DNA of 64,000 nt from Candidatus Ozemibacter sibiricus (GTDB lineage Bacteria; Muiribacteriota; Ozemobacteria; Ozemobacterales; Ozemobacteraceae): assembly GCA_003327425.1 (NCBI GenBank), contig QOQW01000015.1, forward strand, positions 62,001 to 126,000, in the 5' to 3' direction. The position numbers were made by a program, and so were the translations under genes. Below the pieces are notes generated by a model. The model did not search any database. It was not told where the DNA came from and saw only the letters and a program-made list of their open reading frames with translations. This document shows, one piece after another, positions 8,461 to 49,605 of the stretch (positions are counted from its first letter, which is position 1; the number at the start of each line of letters is the position of its first letter).

Positions 8461-9813
8461 TCAGGGCCAGGATTCGGCGGGGGGTGGGGGCGGATTCTCG
8501 AGATGCCAGAGGGCCGCCGAGGGGTTGGGCAGCCCCCGGCCGGTCTCCATATCGAAGCCGGGCGCCCCCAGATCGATGGCCGAGGTGGCCAGAGCCTCGA
8601 GCAGGGTCTCGAGATCGTCGGCGGGGCGGGCTTCCCGCATCTGGGCCCAGATGCCAGCGAAGTGCGCCGCGGCCTGCAAGGTGCCCGAACCGAAGCGATA
8701 GCTGCCTTCCAGGTTCGGGCCGTAGATCGCCACGCCAGGCTCGGCCCAATCAGGCTTGGGAATGGGCACTGCCTCGACCACCCCGGGGCCGGTTCCGGAG
8801 AATCCGGCCTTGGCCTTCCATTGGTCGAGGGCGCCGATGGTGAGGCATTCCGGGAGGGCGGCCATGCCGGTGATCCGGCTGGGGATGTTGCCCGCCGGAA
8901 TGATGGGCAGGACCCCGGCCGTCCGGCAGGCCGCCAGGATCTGGCGCACCGCCTTGGGAGCCGGCCCGCCGAAATCGACGCAGAGCAGGATGGCGGCGGG
9001 GGGCGGGTCATCCGTCGGCTGCAGCACCCATTCGATGGCCGCCAGCAGTTCGGCCGTCGGGAGCTTGCCGCGGGTCACGGTGGCCAGCGAAAGCACGGCC
9101 CCGGTCGCCACGCCCTGGAAACGGCCTTTGACGAACCCCGCCAGGACTCCGAGGGGGTGCATCAGCATCAGGTCTTCGACGGTCCCGGTATTGGCCTTGG
9201 GATCGCCGAAATGCTTGCTATGCTTGATCTTGCCGGAGAGACAAGGGTGGAGATAGGGCAGGTCGGGCCCGACCACCCCGATGAGCACCCCCTGCCCGGT
9301 GAGACCGCGCTCCTGCAGGAGGGCGGTGGCCCCGGACATGGCCAGGTTCCAGGCATTGGGAGCGGGGGGAGCCATGGTCGGTCCCGACGGGCCGGGCCGC
9401 GGCCACGGCATGATCGGTTCCGCCAATTGATCGATGGTTTCGGCCTGCAACGTGGGATACTCGGCCAGCAACCGGGTCAATTCCTCATCGGTCAAATCGA
9501 CGCAGACGCCCCGGGCCGCCCAGACGGGGCGGACATGCCTGCCGCGGCCGTCGAGAACGCGGAGGATCGCCTGCGCCACCTCGCTCCCCTCGAGGCGCAA
9601 AGCGGCCAGCGCCCGTTCGGCGGCCGGCACTCCGGCCACGCGTTCAGCCACCACGTGATGGTCGACGGCTTCGGCCAGGGTCAGGAACCGCGGCCGGGCG
9701 GCGTCGTCAGCCGCCGTGGGGGCCGGGGCCCCGAGGGCCCCGGCCATGACGGTCATGACGGTGAGGAGGAACCCCAGGGGCAAGCCCCTGGGCGGGATCT
9801 TCCGCATACCCAT
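8461..9813 (-). CDS. Secreted subtilisin-fold (S8) protein, catalytically degenerate
   Basis: A 450-aa exported protein. A signal peptide is seen at residues 1-35 (LPLGFLLTVMTVMAGALGAP). Residues about 165-440 follow the subtilase core: LTGQGVLIGVVGPDLPYLHP matches the Asp region, MHPLGVLAGFVKGRFQGVA the His region, IIPAGNIPSRITGM the oxyanion Asn region and FGSGTLQAAAHFAGIWA the Ser region. The expected catalytic Asp position reads Gly (VVGPDL), and the GTS Ser position reads Leu (GTLQA), while a His and the Asn are kept. This predicts a binding or scaffold protein, not an active protease. The first ATG follows AGAGGA by eight bases. It may be co-transcribed with the upstream secreted protein gene (59-base gap). 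Confidence 0.68.
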   Translation of the reverse strand: MGMRKIPPRGLPLGFLLTVMTVMAGALGAPAPTAADDAARPRFLTLAEAVDHHVVAERVAGVPAAERALAALRLEGSEVAQAILRVLDGRGRHVRPVWAARGVCVDLTDEELTRLLAEYPTLQAETIDQLAEPIMPWPRPGPSGPTMAPPAPNAWNLAMSGATALLQERGLTGQGVLIGVVGPDLPYLHPCLSGKIKHSKHFGDPKANTGTVEDLMLMHPLGVLAGFVKGRFQGVATGAVLSLATVTRGKLPTAELLAAIEWVLQPTDDPPPAAILLCVDFGGPAPKAVRQILAACRTAGVLPIIPAGNIPSRITGMAALPECLTIGALDQWKAKAGFSGTGPGVVEAVPIPKPDWAEPGVAIYGPNLEGSYRFGSGTLQAAAHFAGIWAQMREARPADDLETLLEALATSAIDLGAPGFDMETGRGLPNPSAALWHLENPPPPPAESWP

Positions 9814-16755: not shown

Positions 16756-16786
16756 TCGACATTTCGAACTCCCCTCCGGTAGGTAT
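16756..16786 (+). promoter_or_regulatory. Phage bipartite promoter site 1
   Basis: TCGACA (16756-16761), 18-base spacer ending CTCCGG, then TAGGTAT (16780-16786). It drives the integration cassette through the structured leader that begins about 40 bases downstream. It is one of eight matching sites and the only one with T at the first -35 position. Confidence 0.65.
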
Positions 16787-29905: not shown

Positions 29906-32900
29906 ATGGCATTCGAACGTCAGGACAACGTGAGGGAGTATTACCGGCGGATCACCGAGGTCGACATCGGTGCGGTCGCGCGGGAGTTGCTCGGCGCTCA
30001 CGTCCTGCATGAATCCGACCGCCTGCTCCAATGCGACTGCCCGAACCACAGCAGCCAATCGCACCGGTCCCTTCATGTCATGCTCGACAAGCAGGGTTGG
30101 TATTGCTTCGGCTGCGGCGTCGGCGGCGACGTGCTCCAGCTCGTGGAGTTCATCCAGTCGGGCCGGGTGACTCGGGGCCAGTCCGGCCCCATGCCGGAGA
30201 GCCATCAGCGTGCCCGCGATTTCCTCGCGGCCAAGGCCGGACTGCCGTCTTTGGCCAAGCACGGACTCTCGCCCGAGGAATTGGCCGAAGCGGAGGCCCA
30301 GCGCCTGGTCGAACTGCGGGTCCATGAGGTGCTGACGGCCCTGGCGGAACACTATCACGGGCGGCTCAAGGACAATCCCGAGATTCTTGAATGGCTCCGG
30401 TCCAAATACGGCCTTTCCGTGGAGACAATCGACAGGCTCCTCATCGGCTATGCGGACAACGACGGCGACGAGGGAATCGTCCGGAAGTTGACCTGCAAGG
30501 AACGCGGTTTCTCCCCGCGGGATTTGGCGGCATCCGGCGCGTTCCGTCCCACCAACCAAGACGGACTTGATCCGTTCTTTGACCGACGCATCGTGTTTCC
30601 CTACTGGAGCCGCGGCCGCGTCGTTTTCATGATCGGACGCAAGACACCGTGGACGCCTGACAAGCCATGGGAACAAGGAAAATACAAGAAGCTCCCGGTC
30701 CACGACGAAAACACCCGCAAGCACATCGCCCCGTGCATCGACAACAGCCACCTTTACAACGAGGACTGCCTGCTCGCCGATCCGGAACGGTTAATCATCA
30801 CCGAGGGCGTGACCGACTGCATATCCCTCATGGAACATGGCTTCCCGGCCGTGTCGCCGGTGACTGTCCGTATCCGCGAGGCGGATTGGGAGCGGCTTCT
30901 GCCGCGCCTTCGCAACGTGAAGACGGTCTACGTCTGCCAGGACAACGAGATCTCCCAGGCCGGGTTGAACGGCGCGCTCAAGACGGCGGCGGTCCTTTCC
31001 GAGCACCGCATACAGACCCGGCTTGCGGTTCTCCCCCTGGACGAAAGACGCGAGAACGCCCGCCGGGAATTGCGGGAGCGGTTCGGTCTCGACGCCGCGG
31101 TGGGAGCCCGCGAACTGACCAAGCGCCTCGACGGCCGGACCAAGGAGGAAATCCGCGAGGCCGAGCGCCTGCTCTCCGAAGCCAAGATCGATGTCAACGA
31201 CTACTTCGTAGCCGGTCACTCCGCCCAAGACTTCGAAGAGTTGCTGGCGAAGGCCGAGACGCCCTTGGAATTCGGCATCTCCCATCTGCCGACCGACGTC
31301 TCGGAGGAGGAGCGCAACCGGCTGCTCGAACCGATCCTGCGCGAAGCCGCATACCTCACCCCGCTGGAGCAGAACCGCCATCTGAAACTCGTTCAGGAGC
31401 GGTTCGGCAAGACGGGACTCTCGCTGGCCACGTTGCGCGAGCAAGTGCGGGCGGTGCAGAAAGAGCAGAGGTCCAAGGCCAGGCAGGAACGGAAGCGGGA
31501 AAAGCGATCATCGGATGCATCTCCCGGATCGTGCCGGGCGCGGATCGAGGAAGTTCTGCTTGCGACCGAAGAAGAACGCGGCTCGCCCGACTTCACCCTC
31601 GCCGCCGAAGCCGCCTACGAATGGTTCGCCGCCCACGGGGCCAGGTTCTTCCGCACGCCCCAGGGCGAGCCGTTCATGTTCTTCGAGGACACGATCCTGT
31701 GGATGGACACGCCCGACCGGGGCCGTAAGCGGCTCTACGCGTCGCTCATGTACAAGCACACCGGGATGGTGCAGACCACCGGCGGCGGCAGGATATTCTA
31801 TGAGGTGCTGTCAAACCTGGCGGTGGAGCGCGGACAGGTGCGGGAGCATTTTTCCTGGCTTCACACGGACGTGGCCAGGGAAACGGTCTACTTCAACCTG
31901 AACAACACCGACCACGAGATCGCCAAGATCACTCCGGAGGGAGTCGAAATCCTCAAGAACGGCGGCAACGCGGACGGGGTCATCCTGGACGGTTCGCGGA
32001 AGATGGCACCGATCCGGTTCCTTCCCGAGGCCGAACCCGCGGAAGCCGACCGGCTCCTGGTGGAGCTGTTGCTCGACAATCTCACCTGCGCGCCGGGGGA
32101 TCGGGTGCTGATCCTCTCTTGGCTTTCTTGCTTCCTCCTGATCGATTTCGCAGGCACGAGGCCCATGACCCGGTTCGAAGGGCCAGCGGGATCGGGCAAG
32201 ACCACCGCGAGCAAGTTGATTTCGGCCCTGCTCTACGGCGAGCCCCAACAGAAGAAAAGCACCGATGCGGCCAACTACACCGACGGCTCGCAGAACCCGC
32301 TCATCGTCCTCGACAACATCGAGGTCAAACAGATGACCGAGGACCTGACGACCTTCATCCTGACCAGCATCACCGGCATCGCCAAGGAAAAACGCAAAAG
32401 CGGCACGGACACCGAGACGGTCATCGAACGGACCAAGTGCCTGCTCAACACGACCGGCATCGAACCCCTGGGAGGGGAGCTCGCGGAAATCCTGTCCCGC
32501 TCGTTCATCATCCGCTTCGACATGGACGAGCAGGCGAGCGATTGTTTCCTCGAAGCGAAAATTCTGGCTGCGCTCCGGGAGCACCGCGATCTGATCGTCT
32601 CTTCCCTGATGAAGCGCACGAGCCACCTGCTGGCCATGCTCCGGGCCGGCGCTCAAGAGAAGGTGATGCGGCTTCTGCACCGGAGCCTCGGAAACCACAG
32701 CAAGCGGCGATGCAACGACTATCTGAGTCTCATGTATCTGATGATGCTTGCCGGGGAGCGACAGGAAGTGATCGACCGGGCGCTGGAGGAACTCCATCCG
32801 CAGTTCGTGAGCCGGATCGCCACGCTCAACAGCGTCAGCCTCGAGACCGCCCGCGAGTCCAATCCCATCGCCACCTGTCTGGCGGCGCTCTTCAAGGCCT

Positions 32901-33226
32901 ACCGGCACGCACTCGAGGCGGACCGGGAGAGCACCGCACTGAACGTCGCCAAGACCAACAAGGCGGCCTTCCTCGAACGCTACCAGCTCGATTTCCGGAG
33001 CGAGACGACCGTTGAGGGCGCTCTGGCCCGCGATCTGTTCGTGGCCGTCAAACGGCTGTCCAAGGATTTCGGTCTGTCCTTCAACATGAACTCGGTGCAG
33101 CAGTTCGCCCAGCGGTTCTCGAACGACCTGGACACCATCCGCCAGGCCGGGTTCGAGATCGTCGTCAACCGATCGGAACATTCCATCCGGCGCACCGCCA
33201 CCTACGACATCACCTACCTCGTCTGA
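29906..33226 (+). CDS. Primase-helicase: CHC2 zinc finger, TOPRIM and P-loop ATPase
   Basis: A 1106-aa replication protein. The DnaG-type zinc finger lies at about residues 40-80 (CDCPNHS, YCFGCGVGGDVLQLVEF). A TOPRIM domain is at about 290-345 (LIITEGVTDCISLM, TVYVCQDNE). A charged linker (about 395-550) precedes a C-terminal ATPase with Walker A GPAGSGKTTAS at about 759 and LIVLDNIEV at about 798, closer to SF3/DnaA-like phage helicases than to DnaB. It would prime and unwind phage DNA. Start ATG follows GGAG. It is the last gene of the replication operon, and the iteron array lies directly downstream. Confidence 0.88.
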   Translation: MAFERQDNVREYYRRITEVDIGAVARELLGAHVLHESDRLLQCDCPNHSSQSHRSLHVMLDKQGWYCFGCGVGGDVLQLVEFIQSGRVTRGQSGPMPESHQRARDFLAAKAGLPSLAKHGLSPEELAEAEAQRLVELRVHEVLTALAEHYHGRLKDNPEILEWLRSKYGLSVETIDRLLIGYADNDGDEGIVRKLTCKERGFSPRDLAASGAFRPTNQDGLDPFFDRRIVFPYWSRGRVVFMIGRKTPWTPDKPWEQGKYKKLPVHDENTRKHIAPCIDNSHLYNEDCLLADPERLIITEGVTDCISLMEHGFPAVSPVTVRIREADWERLLPRLRNVKTVYVCQDNEISQAGLNGALKTAAVLSEHRIQTRLAVLPLDERRENARRELRERFGLDAAVGARELTKRLDGRTKEEIREAERLLSEAKIDVNDYFVAGHSAQDFEELLAKAETPLEFGISHLPTDVSEEERNRLLEPILREAAYLTPLEQNRHLKLVQERFGKTGLSLATLREQVRAVQKEQRSKARQERKREKRSSDASPGSCRARIEEVLLATEEERGSPDFTLAAEAAYEWFAAHGARFFRTPQGEPFMFFEDTILWMDTPDRGRKRLYASLMYKHTGMVQTTGGGRIFYEVLSNLAVERGQVREHFSWLHTDVARETVYFNLNNTDHEIAKITPEGVEILKNGGNADGVILDGSRKMAPIRFLPEAEPAEADRLLVELLLDNLTCAPGDRVLILSWLSCFLLIDFAGTRPMTRFEGPAGSGKTTASKLISALLYGEPQQKKSTDAANYTDGSQNPLIVLDNIEVKQMTEDLTTFILTSITGIAKEKRKSGTDTETVIERTKCLLNTTGIEPLGGELAEILSRSFIIRFDMDEQASDCFLEAKILAALREHRDLIVSSLMKRTSHLLAMLRAGAQEKVMRLLHRSLGNHSKRRCNDYLSLMYLMMLAGERQEVIDRALEELHPQFVSRIATLNSVSLETARESNPIATCLAALFKAYRHALEADRESTALNVAKTNKAAFLERYQLDFRSETTVEGALARDLFVAVKRLSKDFGLSFNMNSVQQFAQRFSNDLDTIRQAGFEIVVNRSEHSIRRTATYDITYLV

Positions 33227-33252
33227 TCCTTTCCCCTGACGATGCTCTCCTG

Positions 33253-33575
33253 TGCGAAGGGTACCCTTCGCAAACCGCGAAGGACCTTCGCACCCGTAAA
33301 CATCGTCATATCAAGCTGTTGCGGCGACACTGCGAAGGTGCGAAGGGTTTCAGGGGTTCACCCCCCTTACTCAGGAAAAAATATCGCGTGCCGTGACCCC
33401 GTGTCTCCCGACGGACCACCGGTTGTTTTTTCGGTCCGCGCGGGAGTGACACCCTCTACATCCTTCGCACCTTCGCATTCTTTATTCATATCTACCAGCA
33501 ATATCAATCATCTACAGCACCGCGAAGGCTCCTGCGAAGGTTCGAACCGCATTCATCGACCTTCGCACCTTCGCA
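33253..33575. repeat. Iteron-like array of twelve octamers, candidate replication origin
   Basis: Octamer (T/C)GCGAAGG occurs at 33253, 33276, 33331, 33339, 33521 and 33533; its complement CCTTCGCA occurs at 33265, 33285, 33462, 33470, 33560 and 33568. Three pairs are exact tandem repeats with an 8-base period (33331/33339, 33462/33470, 33560/33568). An AT-rich stretch lies at about 33477-33513. There is no reading frame of note. Position after the primase-helicase gene and before promoter site 3 suggests an origin, or a multi-site operator. Confidence 0.68.
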
Positions 33576-33577
33576 TC

Positions 33578-33608
33578 CCGACGGCAGGGACCCCGCTCCG
33601 GTAGGTAT
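33578..33608 (+). promoter_or_regulatory. Phage bipartite promoter site 3
   Basis: CCGACG (33578-33583), 18 bases, TAGGTAT (33602-33608), 38 bases before the GTG at 33646. The last iteron pair ends two bases upstream of the -35 element. Confidence 0.75.
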
Positions 33609-33645
33609 CCCATGAAACGGAAACCACCCGATTGGAGCAGGGAAC

Positions 33646-34503
33646 GTGAGCCTTCTCGAACTCATGATGCAACAGACCGCCGGAGGATCGGCCCCGGTCG
33701 ATACGAGCAACCCGTCGGTCGATGTCTCCAAGCCGGAGACATCGGAACCGGCTGAGCGCAACGGTCCGCAGGAAACCGCCGATTCCGACGGCACCGCCCT
33801 CTATGCGGCCACGAATCTGGACTCCTGGGAAACCGACAAACCTCGATACTTCGCGCGGGACGTGGGCATGGACGGCGTCTGCTATCGCCGTCTGGACCCG
33901 GAATACTACGCTTGGCTCCGGCACAAGATGGCGCTGGCCAAAAAAGCGCTGGAGGCAGGACGACTCGATTCCGCCGCCTTCGACGGATTGCGAACCCGCT
34001 TCAACGACATCCATGCATGGGCCGTCGCACGTTTCGGTGAGAACGAGCTTCTCGCCGCCGTTCGGAGCCTCGACCTCAAGACCTATCCGCCGCCGGCGAT
34101 TGACCCGGCCGCCCAGAGTCGTCCCGCTTGTGCCGCACCCATCTGTCCGGTTGCATGTCCCTCTGGACCGGCTGTCGAGCAATACCTTTACCCCAAGGAC
34201 GGGGAGTGGCGTTTCACGGAGAAGGTCCCGCAATCGGCCATCGACAAGGTCGATGCCGTCCGGGACCAGGCGCTTTCCCTCGGCTGGTCCGAGGCGCGGC
34301 TCTATCAGAACCGGGGACGGTTCCGCTTCCCCTGCGGCGAGGACTACGGACTCGTCTGTTTCGTCGATGCCAAGGAGCGCATCGGCGACGTGACCCGGCA
34401 GTACATCGAGATCATCGGTCCGCCCCCGCGGGAGAACCGCCTTCGTTTTCACAACCCGGATGTGGATCAACCATGGCTCAAGAAAACGAATCCGGAAATA
34501 TGA
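33646..34503 (+). CDS. Phage protein of unknown function
   Basis: A 285-aa protein starting at GTG. The N-terminal 60 residues are low complexity and acidic. Two conserved-looking parts follow: DPEYYAWLRHKMALAKKALE with a helical bundle (about 85-145), and YPKDGEWRFTEKVPQSAIDK to FRFPCGEDYGLVCFVDAKER (about 180-260), which may be a small alpha/beta domain. No family is recognised. It is coupled by ATGA to the small HTH gene. Its promoter is site 3. Confidence 0.6.
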   Translation: MSLLELMMQQTAGGSAPVDTSNPSVDVSKPETSEPAERNGPQETADSDGTALYAATNLDSWETDKPRYFARDVGMDGVCYRRLDPEYYAWLRHKMALAKKALEAGRLDSAAFDGLRTRFNDIHAWAVARFGENELLAAVRSLDLKTYPPPAIDPAAQSRPACAAPICPVACPSGPAVEQYLYPKDGEWRFTEKVPQSAIDKVDAVRDQALSLGWSEARLYQNRGRFRFPCGEDYGLVCFVDAKERIGDVTRQYIEIIGPPPRENRLRFHNPDVDQPWLKKTNPEI

Positions 34504-34766
34504 AACGGCCCTACGCCAATGCCAGGGACGTTCTGCCGTCCGAGGTGCTCGACACCGTCCGGCGGCATTTCACCGGTCTCCTCTGGGTGCCGAGCGACGT
34601 GGGCTTTTACGAGGAACGCCGCAAGCTCGTGCTGGCGCTCAAGGGACAAGGCGTGCCTACCCGCGAGATCGCCCGGCTTTCCGGTGTGACGCCCCGCCGT
34701 GTACGCCAGATCGTGGCTCAGAGCCGCGAGGAATCCATCCCGACGCATCGCGATCCGCTCCGGTAG
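34500..34766 (+). CDS. Small HTH regulator
   Basis: An 88-aa DNA-binding protein coupled to the preceding gene (ATGA). The C-terminal helix-turn-helix is VPTREIARLSGVTPRRVRQI (about residues 52-72), resembling the C-terminal part of Mor/C-type phage activators or sigma region 4. Its stop codon TAG is the first three bases of the TAGGTAT element of promoter site 4, so the gene runs into the next promoter. It could act on late promoters together with the sigma factor; that is inference. Confidence 0.65.
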   Translation: MKRPYANARDVLPSEVLDTVRRHFTGLLWVPSDVGFYEERRKLVLALKGQGVPTREIARLSGVTPRRVRQIVAQSREESIPTHRDPLR

Positions 34767-34770: not shown

Positions 34771-34854
34771 CGAGGGGGTTTCCCCTGAAGAAAGAGGGCG
34801 AAATCCGCCTTCCGCCCCGAACCCCGAGATGCCGAAACGAAAAACGCGGTGATC

Positions 34855-45741: not shown

Positions 45742-48700
45742 ATGGAGCTTTTCGCAACCGACCGTGAACGGCTGGCGTTCCTCCTCGAAACGGACGCCGC
45801 CCTGGACCTGGACTTCGAGGCGCTCGAGGCCCAGGCCGAGGCGGCTGCCGAGGAGCCGTCGCCGGAAGAGCGGCCTAAATACATCACCAACTACATCGGC
45901 TCCAAGCAGAAGCTGGTGGATTGGATTTGGAAGCACACCCCGGACGGCGTGGAATCCGTCGTCGACGCGTTTTCCGGTTCGGCGGTCGTGGCCTACATGT
46001 ACAAGACCAAGGGCCTGCGGGTCCTGGCCAACGACCGGCTGCACTACTGCCACCATGCGGCCCGGGCGATCATCGAGAACGACAAGGTGCGTCTCTCCGA
46101 TGAGGACCTGGAGGCGCTGCTCGCGGACAACGCGAAGGCCGGAACCTTCGTCCGGGACAACTTCAAGGGCATCTTCTTCGCCAAGGGCGTCCACGGCCTG
46201 ATCGACACGATCCGGGCCAACATCGACAAACTCTCGGGTTTCAAGAAAGACATCGCTCTCTTCGCCCTGGGCAAGACCTGCATGTCCGGCAAGGGCGGCT
46301 TCGGGCATTTCTCGTCGTCGACCCGCTACGGCAAGCGCGAGGACACCCCGGAGGAATTCAAGGAGCGGCTTCGCAAGAACGTGGCCCGCATCAACGCCCT
46401 CGTTTTCGACAACGGCAAGGAGTGCAAGGCATCCCGCAAGGACATCAACGACTTTCTGCCGGAGGCCAAGGCCGATCTGGCCTATTTCGATCCGCCCTAC
46501 GCCACGGAGTTTTCGACCACCAACTACGAAAAATCCTACCACTTCGTGGAAGGGCTGATGACCTATTGGGAGGGGCTGACCCTCGTCGAGGACTCCAAGA
46601 CCAAGCATTACGAAACCGACCACAAGACCGTGACCCGCGCCAACGCCGCGGAGTTCTTCGAGTCCTTCCTCGGCAACGCCAAGCATATCCCGCACTGGCT
46701 CATTTCCTACCGGGACCATGCCTATCCGAACGAATCGGAGATGCGGCGGATCATCGCCTCCCTGGGACGGGATTCGTCGATGCGCTCCCACGATCACCAT
46801 TACGCCATCACATCCCGGCACGGCGAGGCGTCCCACGCCAAGGAGCGTCTGTTCATCTGCCGCAAGGCCGAGGGCGCGGAGCGATCCGCCAAGGCGTCCG
46901 CAGAGGACAGCCTGCGGGCGGAAGCCGTCTGGGAGGAAACCGAGAACGAGGTACGTTTCCGCGTCCGGAACCCGGACGAGTTCGAACCCGACAGCTTCCG
47001 CCGCAAGCCCCTGGAGGGCGTCGACGGCGTGGCGATCATCATCGGGCGATTGAAGAAAAAGTTCGTGCCCGAAGGCGGCAATCCGCGCGCCATGGTGTTG
47101 CAGGCCTACCGGTTCGTCCGCAAGACGGAGAAGAACCCGGACGGCTGGACCGTGGAAAAAGCCAAGGAGTGGATCGACAAGCACGAAGCCGGACGGGCCG
47201 TGGATGCCGCCCTGCGCGTGGAGGAGAACCTGATCGCTCTGGCGGATGCGCCGCTTGGCGAATCGCTGGACCTCTTGAGCTGCCAGGCCGGGAAAGCGGA
47301 ATCGGTCCGCGTCACCGGTTTCATGGGCAGCAAGTACCTGATGCTCGGCTGGATCGAAAGCCATGTCCCCAAGGACGCGGAGAGCATCCTCGATGCTTTT
47401 TCAGGCGGGGCCAACGTCGCCTATCACTTCAAACGCAAAGGGCTGAAAGTCATCGCCAACGATCTCCTGCGGTATCCCCACCATCTGGCGCGGGCCGTGG
47501 TGGAGAACTCCAGCGAGACGCTGAGCGACGAGGACGTGGACCGAATCCTCGCCCCCAATGCGGACGCGGGCACCTTTATCGTCGATCACTTCTACGGCTA
47601 TTACTACACCAAGCCGGTGCTCCGGTGGCTCGACCAGGTCTGGGCGAACATCCAGAAGTTTCACGGCTACAAGAAAGATCTGGCGCTGGCCGCGCTCGGC
47701 ACCACCGTCAAGGCCAAGAGCGCCTTCGGTCAGTTCTCGCGGTCCAAGATGCACCGCAAGGCAGACCTCGACACGGATGCCAGCCTGGAGCAATCCCAGC
47801 TCTCCAATCCGCCGCTGTCCAAGTTCATCGAGTCGTTCCGGCGCTCGGTGGGCCAGCTCAACCGGCTCGTCTTCGACAACGGCAAAGAGTGCAAGGCCTT
47901 CAACCTGGATGCGGCCGAGGCGGTCCGGCGATTCGGCGCGGACGTTCTGTATCTGGACCCGCCCTACGTCACCGAGTTCGGCAGCAACGATTACGAGGAC
48001 TCCCTGCATTTCATCGAGGGTCTCATGACCCGCTGGGCGGACAAGGAACTCCAGGACAATCCCCGCCGCAACTATCCGTCCCGGACGCGTTACACCAAGG
48101 AATCGATCCGTTCCCTGATGGAGACGATGGCAGCCGACGCCCGGGGCAAGTACGGCACGGTGCTCCTGTCCTACCGCGACCGGGCTTTCCCGCGGGAAGA
48201 GGAAATCAAGGAGATATTCGCCGAGCACTACGGTCTCGTCCGGGTCCGCGGCATGGAGGTGGACTACAACATCGCCAAGGACATCGGCCGGGAAGGCAAG
48301 CACGCGCGGGAGCTGCTCTTCGTCGCTTCCAAATCACGCGGTGCGGCGCGCTCCAAAGCGGATACGCGGGCACCGGCGGCATGTCACACCTCGTTCCCTG
48401 TAGAGCTGTCGCTCGATACGTTCACCGGGCTCCAGACCGAAGCGGCGGCATTGGACCAGGCCGCGGGCGATCCGCAGTTCACCTTCATCCTCTGCCGGGC
48501 CGGCACGAACAAGAACGGCGACCACTTCACCCCCGACGAACTGGCCGCCCGCTACATGACGGCGGTCAACAAGAAGATCGACCTGAAGCATTCCCAGGAT
48601 TTCACCGACATCGTCGGCGGCATCGTGGGGGCGGATTACGTCGAGGACGAAAGCGGCGGCCGGATCGAGTGCGCGGGGGAACTCTATGTCTCCGACAGCC

Positions 48701-49605
48701 CGCACGCGCAGTTGGCCTACAAGCTCATCCGCAAAGGGATCATCTCCCAGGTCTCCATGGAATGCGACTACGAGGAAGGCGAGTGCTCGATCTGCGGCAA
48801 ACGCGTCGTTTCGAAGAGCGATTACTGCGTCCACCTGCGCAAGAACAAAGGCGGCGAGCTCCAGGGGCAGCCCGTCTACGAAATCCTCCACGGCGTCACT
48901 TTCACCGGGCTCGGGCTCCTCGACCGCAAAGGCGCGGACGAAAACGCCCGCATCCTAAAAGTCGCCGCGGCGGAAAACGATGGTTCGACAACCCACTCTG
49001 AAGGAGGTCCGACAATGGACGAGAAACAAAAGGATACCGAGGAACGGGCGGCGGAAGCCGCCAAGAAGAAGGACGACGGCGGCGGTGGGACCGCGCCCGA
49101 TGACAAGACCCGGCTCAAGGAGTTGGAGCGGGAGAACAAGGAACTCAAACAGCAGGTTCTCGCGCTGCAGAAGCAGCTCGAGGAACTGGAGGCGGAGAAA
49201 AAGGCCGCCGCGAACAGGAGCCGGGCCCAGAAGCTCCTGCGCAAGATCGAAAAGAGCGGGCTGGCATTCGAGAGCGACGAGGATCGCGAACAGGAGCTGA
49301 GCCGTCTGGCCGGTCTTTCCGACGACGCCTTCGCCGCCAGCGAAGCCGCTTTCGAGCGGATGATGAAGGCCGGTTCCCGCGGTCACTCCGAGGACAAGGA
49401 CGCGAAGAACCGAGGAGCGGGCGCGGAAACCGCGAAGGCGTCATGCGGTTGCGACGACCCGCCCCTGCGCAGCGACGCGGGCGTCCGTCCGAAGGATGTG
49501 GAAGACAAAAAGACGAGCCTCGAGGACCGGCTGAAGAGCGGCTTCATGGCCGCCTACCGGCAGCGAGTGGCGACGGCGACCGGCGAACCGGTTTCGACCA
49601 ACTGA
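45742..49605 (+). CDS. Four-part fusion: two D12-class adenine methyltransferases, capsid protease, scaffold
   Basis: A 1287-aa polyprotein-like product. Methyltransferase 1 (about residues 45-375): TNYIGSKQKLVDWIW, VVDAFSGSAVVAY, DPPY at 250. A linker (about 400-485, FRVRNPDEFEPDSFRRKPLE, AMVLQAYRFVRKTEK) resembles the N-terminal part of XkdF-like head proteins. Methyltransferase 2 (about 525-875): TGFMGSKYLMLGWIE, ILDAFSGGANVAYHF, DPPY at 739. Capsid maturation protease (about 910-1080): FTFILCRAGTNKNGDHF, candidate catalytic His950 (DLKHSQD) and Ser1005 (SQVSMECD), and a CSICG...YCVHL knuckle. A coiled-coil scaffold ends it. The two methylases appear to be duplicates inserted into a protease-scaffold gene. 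A second start at 49015 yields scaffold alone. Start ATG follows GGAGA. Confidence 0.85.
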   Translation: MELFATDRERLAFLLETDAALDLDFEALEAQAEAAAEEPSPEERPKYITNYIGSKQKLVDWIWKHTPDGVESVVDAFSGSAVVAYMYKTKGLRVLANDRLHYCHHAARAIIENDKVRLSDEDLEALLADNAKAGTFVRDNFKGIFFAKGVHGLIDTIRANIDKLSGFKKDIALFALGKTCMSGKGGFGHFSSSTRYGKREDTPEEFKERLRKNVARINALVFDNGKECKASRKDINDFLPEAKADLAYFDPPYATEFSTTNYEKSYHFVEGLMTYWEGLTLVEDSKTKHYETDHKTVTRANAAEFFESFLGNAKHIPHWLISYRDHAYPNESEMRRIIASLGRDSSMRSHDHHYAITSRHGEASHAKERLFICRKAEGAERSAKASAEDSLRAEAVWEETENEVRFRVRNPDEFEPDSFRRKPLEGVDGVAIIIGRLKKKFVPEGGNPRAMVLQAYRFVRKTEKNPDGWTVEKAKEWIDKHEAGRAVDAALRVEENLIALADAPLGESLDLLSCQAGKAESVRVTGFMGSKYLMLGWIESHVPKDAESILDAFSGGANVAYHFKRKGLKVIANDLLRYPHHLARAVVENSSETLSDEDVDRILAPNADAGTFIVDHFYGYYYTKPVLRWLDQVWANIQKFHGYKKDLALAALGTTVKAKSAFGQFSRSKMHRKADLDTDASLEQSQLSNPPLSKFIESFRRSVGQLNRLVFDNGKECKAFNLDAAEAVRRFGADVLYLDPPYVTEFGSNDYEDSLHFIEGLMTRWADKELQDNPRRNYPSRTRYTKESIRSLMETMAADARGKYGTVLLSYRDRAFPREEEIKEIFAEHYGLVRVRGMEVDYNIAKDIGREGKHARELLFVASKSRGAARSKADTRAPAACHTSFPVELSLDTFTGLQTEAAALDQAAGDPQFTFILCRAGTNKNGDHFTPDELAARYMTAVNKKIDLKHSQDFTDIVGGIVGADYVEDESGGRIECAGELYVSDSPHAQLAYKLIRKGIISQVSMECDYEEGECSICGKRVVSKSDYCVHLRKNKGGELQGQPVYEILHGVTFTGLGLLDRKGADENARILKVAAAENDGSTTHSEGGPTMDEKQKDTEERAAEAAKKKDDGGGGTAPDDKTRLKELERENKELKQQVLALQKQLEELEAEKKAAANRSRAQKLLRKIEKSGLAFESDEDREQELSRLAGLSDDAFAASEAAFERMMKAGSRGHSEDKDAKNRGAGAETAKASCGCDDPPLRSDAGVRPKDVEDKKTSLEDRLKSGFMAAYRQRVATATGEPVSTN
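49015..49605 (+). CDS. Internal in-frame start producing capsid scaffold
   Basis: Within the fusion gene, ATG 49015 lies seven bases after a perfect AAGGAGG (49001-49007) and is in frame, giving a 196-aa product that is acidic, Lys/Glu-rich and coiled-coil (LKELERENKELKQQVLALQK, QLEELEAEKKAAANRSRAQK). This matches the nested protease/scaffold arrangement of lambda C/Nu3. It would supply excess scaffold relative to protease. Not experimentally shown; the strength of the ribosome binding site is the main evidence. Confidence 0.75.
   Translation: MDEKQKDTEERAAEAAKKKDDGGGGTAPDDKTRLKELERENKELKQQVLALQKQLEELEAEKKAAANRSRAQKLLRKIEKSGLAFESDEDREQELSRLAGLSDDAFAASEAAFERMMKAGSRGHSEDKDAKNRGAGAETAKASCGCDDPPLRSDAGVRPKDVEDKKTSLEDRLKSGFMAAYRQRVATATGEPVSTN

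Follow-up and report, generated by a model that had tools for sequence, protein, structure and literature searches.

In phage P4, the C-terminal winged helix of the alpha protein binds the repeats of the origin, as related in PMC4234260 (citing Yeo 2002). The SaPI Rep protein and the SCCmec protein Cch2 likewise bind, through a C-terminal domain, iterons situated 3' of their own gene (PMC7581432). Cch2 is a probable self-loading helicase, and its C-terminal domain, taken by itself, binds the direct repeats that immediately follow the gene (PMC7581432). A similar arrangement is found in the 64-kb stretch of DNA from Candidatus Ozemibacter sibiricus analysed here (hereafter the window). An array of octamers follows a primase-helicase gene. 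Very probably the replication of a temperate phage begins at this array, with the upstream primase-helicase acting as the initiator of its own origin and reading the octamers by a winged helix.

The array consists of twelve YGCGAAGG octamers across 323 bp (33253-33575), six on the forward strand (starting at 33253, 33276, 33331, 33339, 33521 and 33533) and six on the reverse strand (33265, 33285, 33462, 33470, 33560 and 33568). When the stretch between the stop codon and the next gene (33227-33645) is dinucleotide-shuffled 2,000 times, it contains 0.05 octamers on average and never more than 2, compared to the 12 observed; its commonest 8-mer occurs 10 times, and at most 4 times in the shuffles. 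All three copies of the 16-mer CCTTCGCACCTTCGCA, a double octamer, in the 5.68-Mb genome lie within the array. An earlier note on this DNA had described twelve octamers, six per orientation, within 323 bases of noncoding DNA directly past the primase-helicase gene, together with three exact 8-base tandem pairs and an AT-rich stretch. These features are all borne out, with the first octamer 27 bp after the stop and the exact pairs at 33331/33339, 33462/33470 and 33560/33568. A 120-aa ORF running over the array (33242-33604) is mechanical and was not taken as a gene.

From left to right, the array opens with a cluster of four octamers in alternating orientation (+ - + -, 33253-33292), followed by an inner left tandem pair on the forward strand (33331-33346) and an inner right tandem pair on the reverse strand that faces it (33462-33477). 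The 115-bp spacer separating the facing pairs (33347-33461) contains a GTTTCAGGGG element and an A-tract, both also present in relatives, as well as an imperfect hairpin, which is unexceptional (z = -1.5). To the right of the facing pairs lies an AT-rich segment (33478-33520; GC 0.33 vs 0.63 for the locus) with octamers on both sides, which is a candidate DNA-unwinding element. It is followed by an outer right pair on the forward strand with a 4-bp gap (33521-33540) and a terminal tandem pair on the reverse strand (33560-33575). GC skew of the window gave no sharp, clear switch at 33.4 kb.

The primase-helicase, the proposed origin-binding initiator, is a protein of 1106 aa (29906-33226, forward strand) that matches Zn_ribbon_DnaG, DNAG_N, Toprim_2 and AAA_23 in Pfam and PHROG 47 (DNA primase, E=2e-186). 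AlphaFold2 predicts a C-terminal winged helix at residues 1035-1106 (codons 33008-33223, forward strand); residues 985-1106 were modelled with a mean pLDDT of 91 as three helices and a two-strand wing, and the variable residues lie in the wing. The wing itself (residues 1083-1106, codons 33152-33223 on the forward strand) is the proposed specificity determinant, based on its covariation with the iteron. In the model of residues 640-1106 the ATPase core is weak (pLDDT <50 at model positions 142-171 and 179-240), so that the fold search with it was uninformative. When the winged helix alone was searched, no match had E below 0.001 either, and the best viral matches included C-terminal parts of primase-helicases and helicases (probability 0.94-0.99, E of about 0.01-0.1). 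A profile search of solved structures with the helicase and C-terminal part gave zero matches, and sequence matches were to DnaG primase domains only.

Upstream of the primase-helicase are genes for an exonuclease and for Sak4-like, DUF669 and RecD2-like proteins. As integrase, terminase, portal, head, sheath, baseplate and tape-measure genes are found farther along the window, the element carrying the array is a complete, temperate, contractile-tailed phage and no satellite. Records labelled Desulfatitalea, Desulfobacterium and Anaerolinea contain the nearest copies of the gene, with 96-97% identity. Amid the head genes, a 1287-aa ORF (45742-49605) matches DNA methyltransferase PHROGs and adjoins a low-GC stretch at 43-46 kb.

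The likeness to P4 extends to both protein and DNA. Both proteins combine a DnaG/Toprim-type primase with a helicase and a C-terminal winged helix, the latter predicted here. According to the P4 record, alpha is immediately followed at its 3' end by crr, whose 8-bp type 1 repeats are tandem (period 9) as well as inverted. However, P4 also has a separate origin region (9086-9809), whereas a single array was seen in the window and the remainder of its 24 octamers occur only singly. The Pox_D5 and D5_N domains of P4 alpha are absent from the window protein, BLASTP aligns the two over no more than short stretches, at the zinc ribbon and a P-loop, and P4 is a satellite while the window element is a complete phage. 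With SaPIs and other PICIs the locus has in common that the putative initiator gene is directly followed, on its 3' side, by an iteron array and that two sets of iterons flank an AT-rich region. Unlike PICIs, which are satellites, the window has terminase, portal, head, sheath and tape-measure genes, and the plan of facing pairs with a spacing of about 118 bp was measured in the window's group only. A further difference is that the primases of SaPIbov1 and SaPI5 are of the archaeo-eukaryotic type (PMC7581432). The AAGTG repeats of Cch2 also lie just downstream of their own gene, as the array does here, although there are only three iterons of 5 nt, Cch2 is a D5-type helicase with a separate primase-polymerase, and no in vivo replication has been demonstrated for that system. 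The module is therefore classed neither as P4 alpha, lacking Pox_D5 and D5_N, nor as a PICI, given the complete set of virion genes. It is best read as a self-contained initiator-origin module working like P4 alpha/crr or PICI/SaPI Rep/ori.

By analogy with P4 alpha and SaPI/PICI Rep, the protein would bind, melt and unwind the DNA, prime it and so replicate the phage. The octamer would be read by the C-terminal winged helix, with the wing setting much of the specificity, and neighbouring primase-helicase molecules would assemble on the facing tandem pairs, which are separated by about 118 bp, as well as on the outer pairs. Melting would then occur in the AT-rich segment next to them, the AAA+ domain would unwind the DNA and the DnaG-type primase domain would prime it.

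Scans with the primase-helicase protein and alignments yielded 102 non-redundant loci in which the gene end could be read; in these, the most repeated word was sought with the window octamer left out of the search. Arrays were found past the same gene in most of these loci; relatives L078, L082 and L096 had no clear array. In some relatives, 0.7-2.7 kb of other genes intervene between gene and array. Among the 48 mapped arrays of the window's group, 42 have facing tandem pairs (period 8 or 9) at 106-125 bp, and in 39 of these 42 an AT-rich segment (GC <=0.38) lies to their right, so that the order of two facing tandem pairs, then AT-rich segment and outer pairs, is kept. The iteron word itself takes 11 forms in this group (TGCGAAGG, TGAGAAGG, TGGGAAGG, TGCGGAGG, GGTGAAAGG, TGTAGAAAG, TGCCGAAAG, TACCGAAAG, TGCGGTGG, GGCGGGTG and GCAGAAG). 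At the level of sequence comparison, the relatives strongly support the reading of the array as a phage replication origin that the earlier note had proposed.

A further branch (L107:5001-7739 and relatives) has the same primase half fused to a VapE-type helicase half. Its arrays of GTTCCAG, GTCCCAG, GTGGACC or GTGCACC follow a similar plan, and the branch is a putative case of helicase-domain exchange. Among distant phage primases in the phage collection, no comparable array was present in the 4 records checked. Two such prophages with differing iterons occur together in Desulfosarcina alkanivorans PL12 (L066 and L079) and in Desulfobulbus rhabdoformis (L075 and L091), and one viral contig carries two copies (L120 and L137) with an identical iteron.

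Which protein reads the iterons is indicated by covariation. Protein pairs with an identity of at least 75% in residues 1-900 (n=295) were compared, and after controlling for background identity the partial correlation of iteron sharing with local identity was -0.43 to 0.21 for residues 1-840 and 0.85 for wing residues 1081-1104. Correlations climb past residue 840, and residues 865-1080 covary too, more weakly than the wing. Wing identity is 85% among pairs with the same iteron and 38% among pairs with different iterons. In a reduced set (n=24), the partial Mantel r was 0.67 for the wing (p 0.0005), -0.11 to 0.02 for the five N-terminal windows tested and 0.08-0.43 for windows from 841 to 1080. 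Near-minimal pairs with differing iterons follow the same pattern: residues 1-900 are 99.0% identical and the wings 29% in L131/L132, the corresponding values are 98.2% and 33% in L081/L067, and in L074/L075 they are 98.2% and 67%, with a helix region that is 100% identical and a sequence beyond the gene end that also differs. L081 has a wing and iteron like those of the window's group, though its residues 1-900 are 98% like those of L067. G010 has a frame that looks like the recognition-helix region, but it was set aside, as it is interrupted by stops.

Wing and array are linked at 27 bp to 2.7 kb, so that joint inheritance of the two in recombined blocks may explain some of the covariation. 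The pairing of wing and iteron is nevertheless kept across distances between gene end and array of 155 bp to 2.5 kb in the GTAGAAAG group and of 55 bp to 2.1 kb in the GCGGTGG group, and one wing length class pairs with GGTGAAAGG across backgrounds 60-73% identical. As the pairing holds at these varied distances and backgrounds, simple hitch-hiking is disfavoured. The array, its conserved layout, its position after the primase-helicase gene and the covariation of iteron and wing are direct observations, and the covariation points to the primase-helicase as the probable origin reader.

The earlier note had named as candidates for this role the primase-helicase and two proteins encoded beyond the array. 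Either of the latter might bind the iterons of the origin and then recruit the primase-helicase. The first, orf33646 (33646-34503, forward strand), is conserved beside the array in 47 of the 48 array loci of the window's group, but it was rejected as reader because it does not track iteron identity: it is 46% identical between L065 and L066, which share an iteron, and 90% and 89% identical in L081/L067 and L131/L132, which do not. The second, orf34500 (34500-34766), encodes a small protein with similarity to HTH proteins, among them a late transcriptional activator (PHROG 836, E=2.6e-5), yet it was not detected in 5 of the 48 loci. Of the three candidates the primase-helicase is thus singled out, and binding by either neighbour is very unlikely. 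Iteron arrays also serve as centromeres, and a terminase small-subunit-like gene lies at 34849, which could suggest that the array serves in partition or packaging and not as an origin. This is more improbable still, as no partition gene was recognised beside the array, the AT-rich segment is conserved and the covariation partner is the primase-helicase.

Alternatively, the array could chiefly be an operator, with an octamer-bound phage protein controlling the element at 33579-33608 and the later genes, and with replication starting elsewhere. The earlier note had placed a sigma-type promoter here. No sigma-70-like promoter was found at the array, but a repeated phage element, CGAC-N13-CTCCGGTAGGTAT (33579-33608, forward strand), does begin just past the last octamer. 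CTCCGGTAGGTAT has six exact copies in the window where none is expected (starting at 16774, 24442, 33596, 34758, 45626 and 52545, with the copy beside the array at 33596-33608), all on the forward strand and each with CGAC ahead, and the element is phage-wide and promoter-like. The small protein orf34500 is a candidate to act at it. The distance from the last iteron to the element could be measured in 38 of the 48 array loci; 25 of them have 21-22 bp and 9 have 30 bp, independent of the iteron word. Such fixed spacing in relatives with different iterons supports the earlier note's idea that the array may also touch transcription; a protein on the last iterons would abut the CGAC part of the element. 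The operator reading can further draw on the presence of orf33646 after the array in 47 of 48 loci. An array serving mainly as operator is nonetheless unlikely, although somewhat less so than the preceding alternatives. No octamer lies within 400 bp of any of the motif's other five copies, an operator would not need as much as twelve sites in 323 bp, facing pairs and an AT-rich segment, and specificity tracks a replication protein and no regulator. A double role as origin and operator is possible, and a coupling of replication to transcription through the array appears plausible.

Returning to the array as a probable origin read by its own primase-helicase, the slot between the stop of that gene and the array, empty in the window (27 bp), holds cargo in 18 of 48 relatives (for example L071:8405-10347, L081:8371-9908, L074:8511-10019, L076:8331-8950, L131:8353-9570 and L095:8656-10167). 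This cargo includes AbiLi/AbiLii, AbiEi/AbiEii, a Fic-domain protein (PADLOC candidate PDC-S24), Phd/ParE, a PLD/NgoFVII-like nuclease and an ABC-type ATPase; no RNA families were found in loci with a filled slot. The slot therefore looks like a hotspot for defence and toxin-antitoxin genes.

A P4/PICI-like initiator-origin module, described for satellites, is now placed in complete phages, as far as the open-access literature goes and with earlier reports possibly missed. The relatives form a natural series in which one layout is combined with at least 11 iteron words and with matched initiators, some of which are almost identical apart from a short wing. Perhaps, though this is put forward tentatively and as less than an even prospect, they represent a widespread family of complete phages with one origin blueprint, in which iteron word and wing have repeatedly been rewritten together. 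This would create replication-specificity groups whose members could coexist in one cell without cross-initiation, and the outermost iterons, in fixed register to the promoter, would act as a switch between replication and transcription. With this series it becomes possible to test by what changes a winged-helix initiator acquires a different DNA specificity, and whether incompatibility in replication causes phages to diverge.
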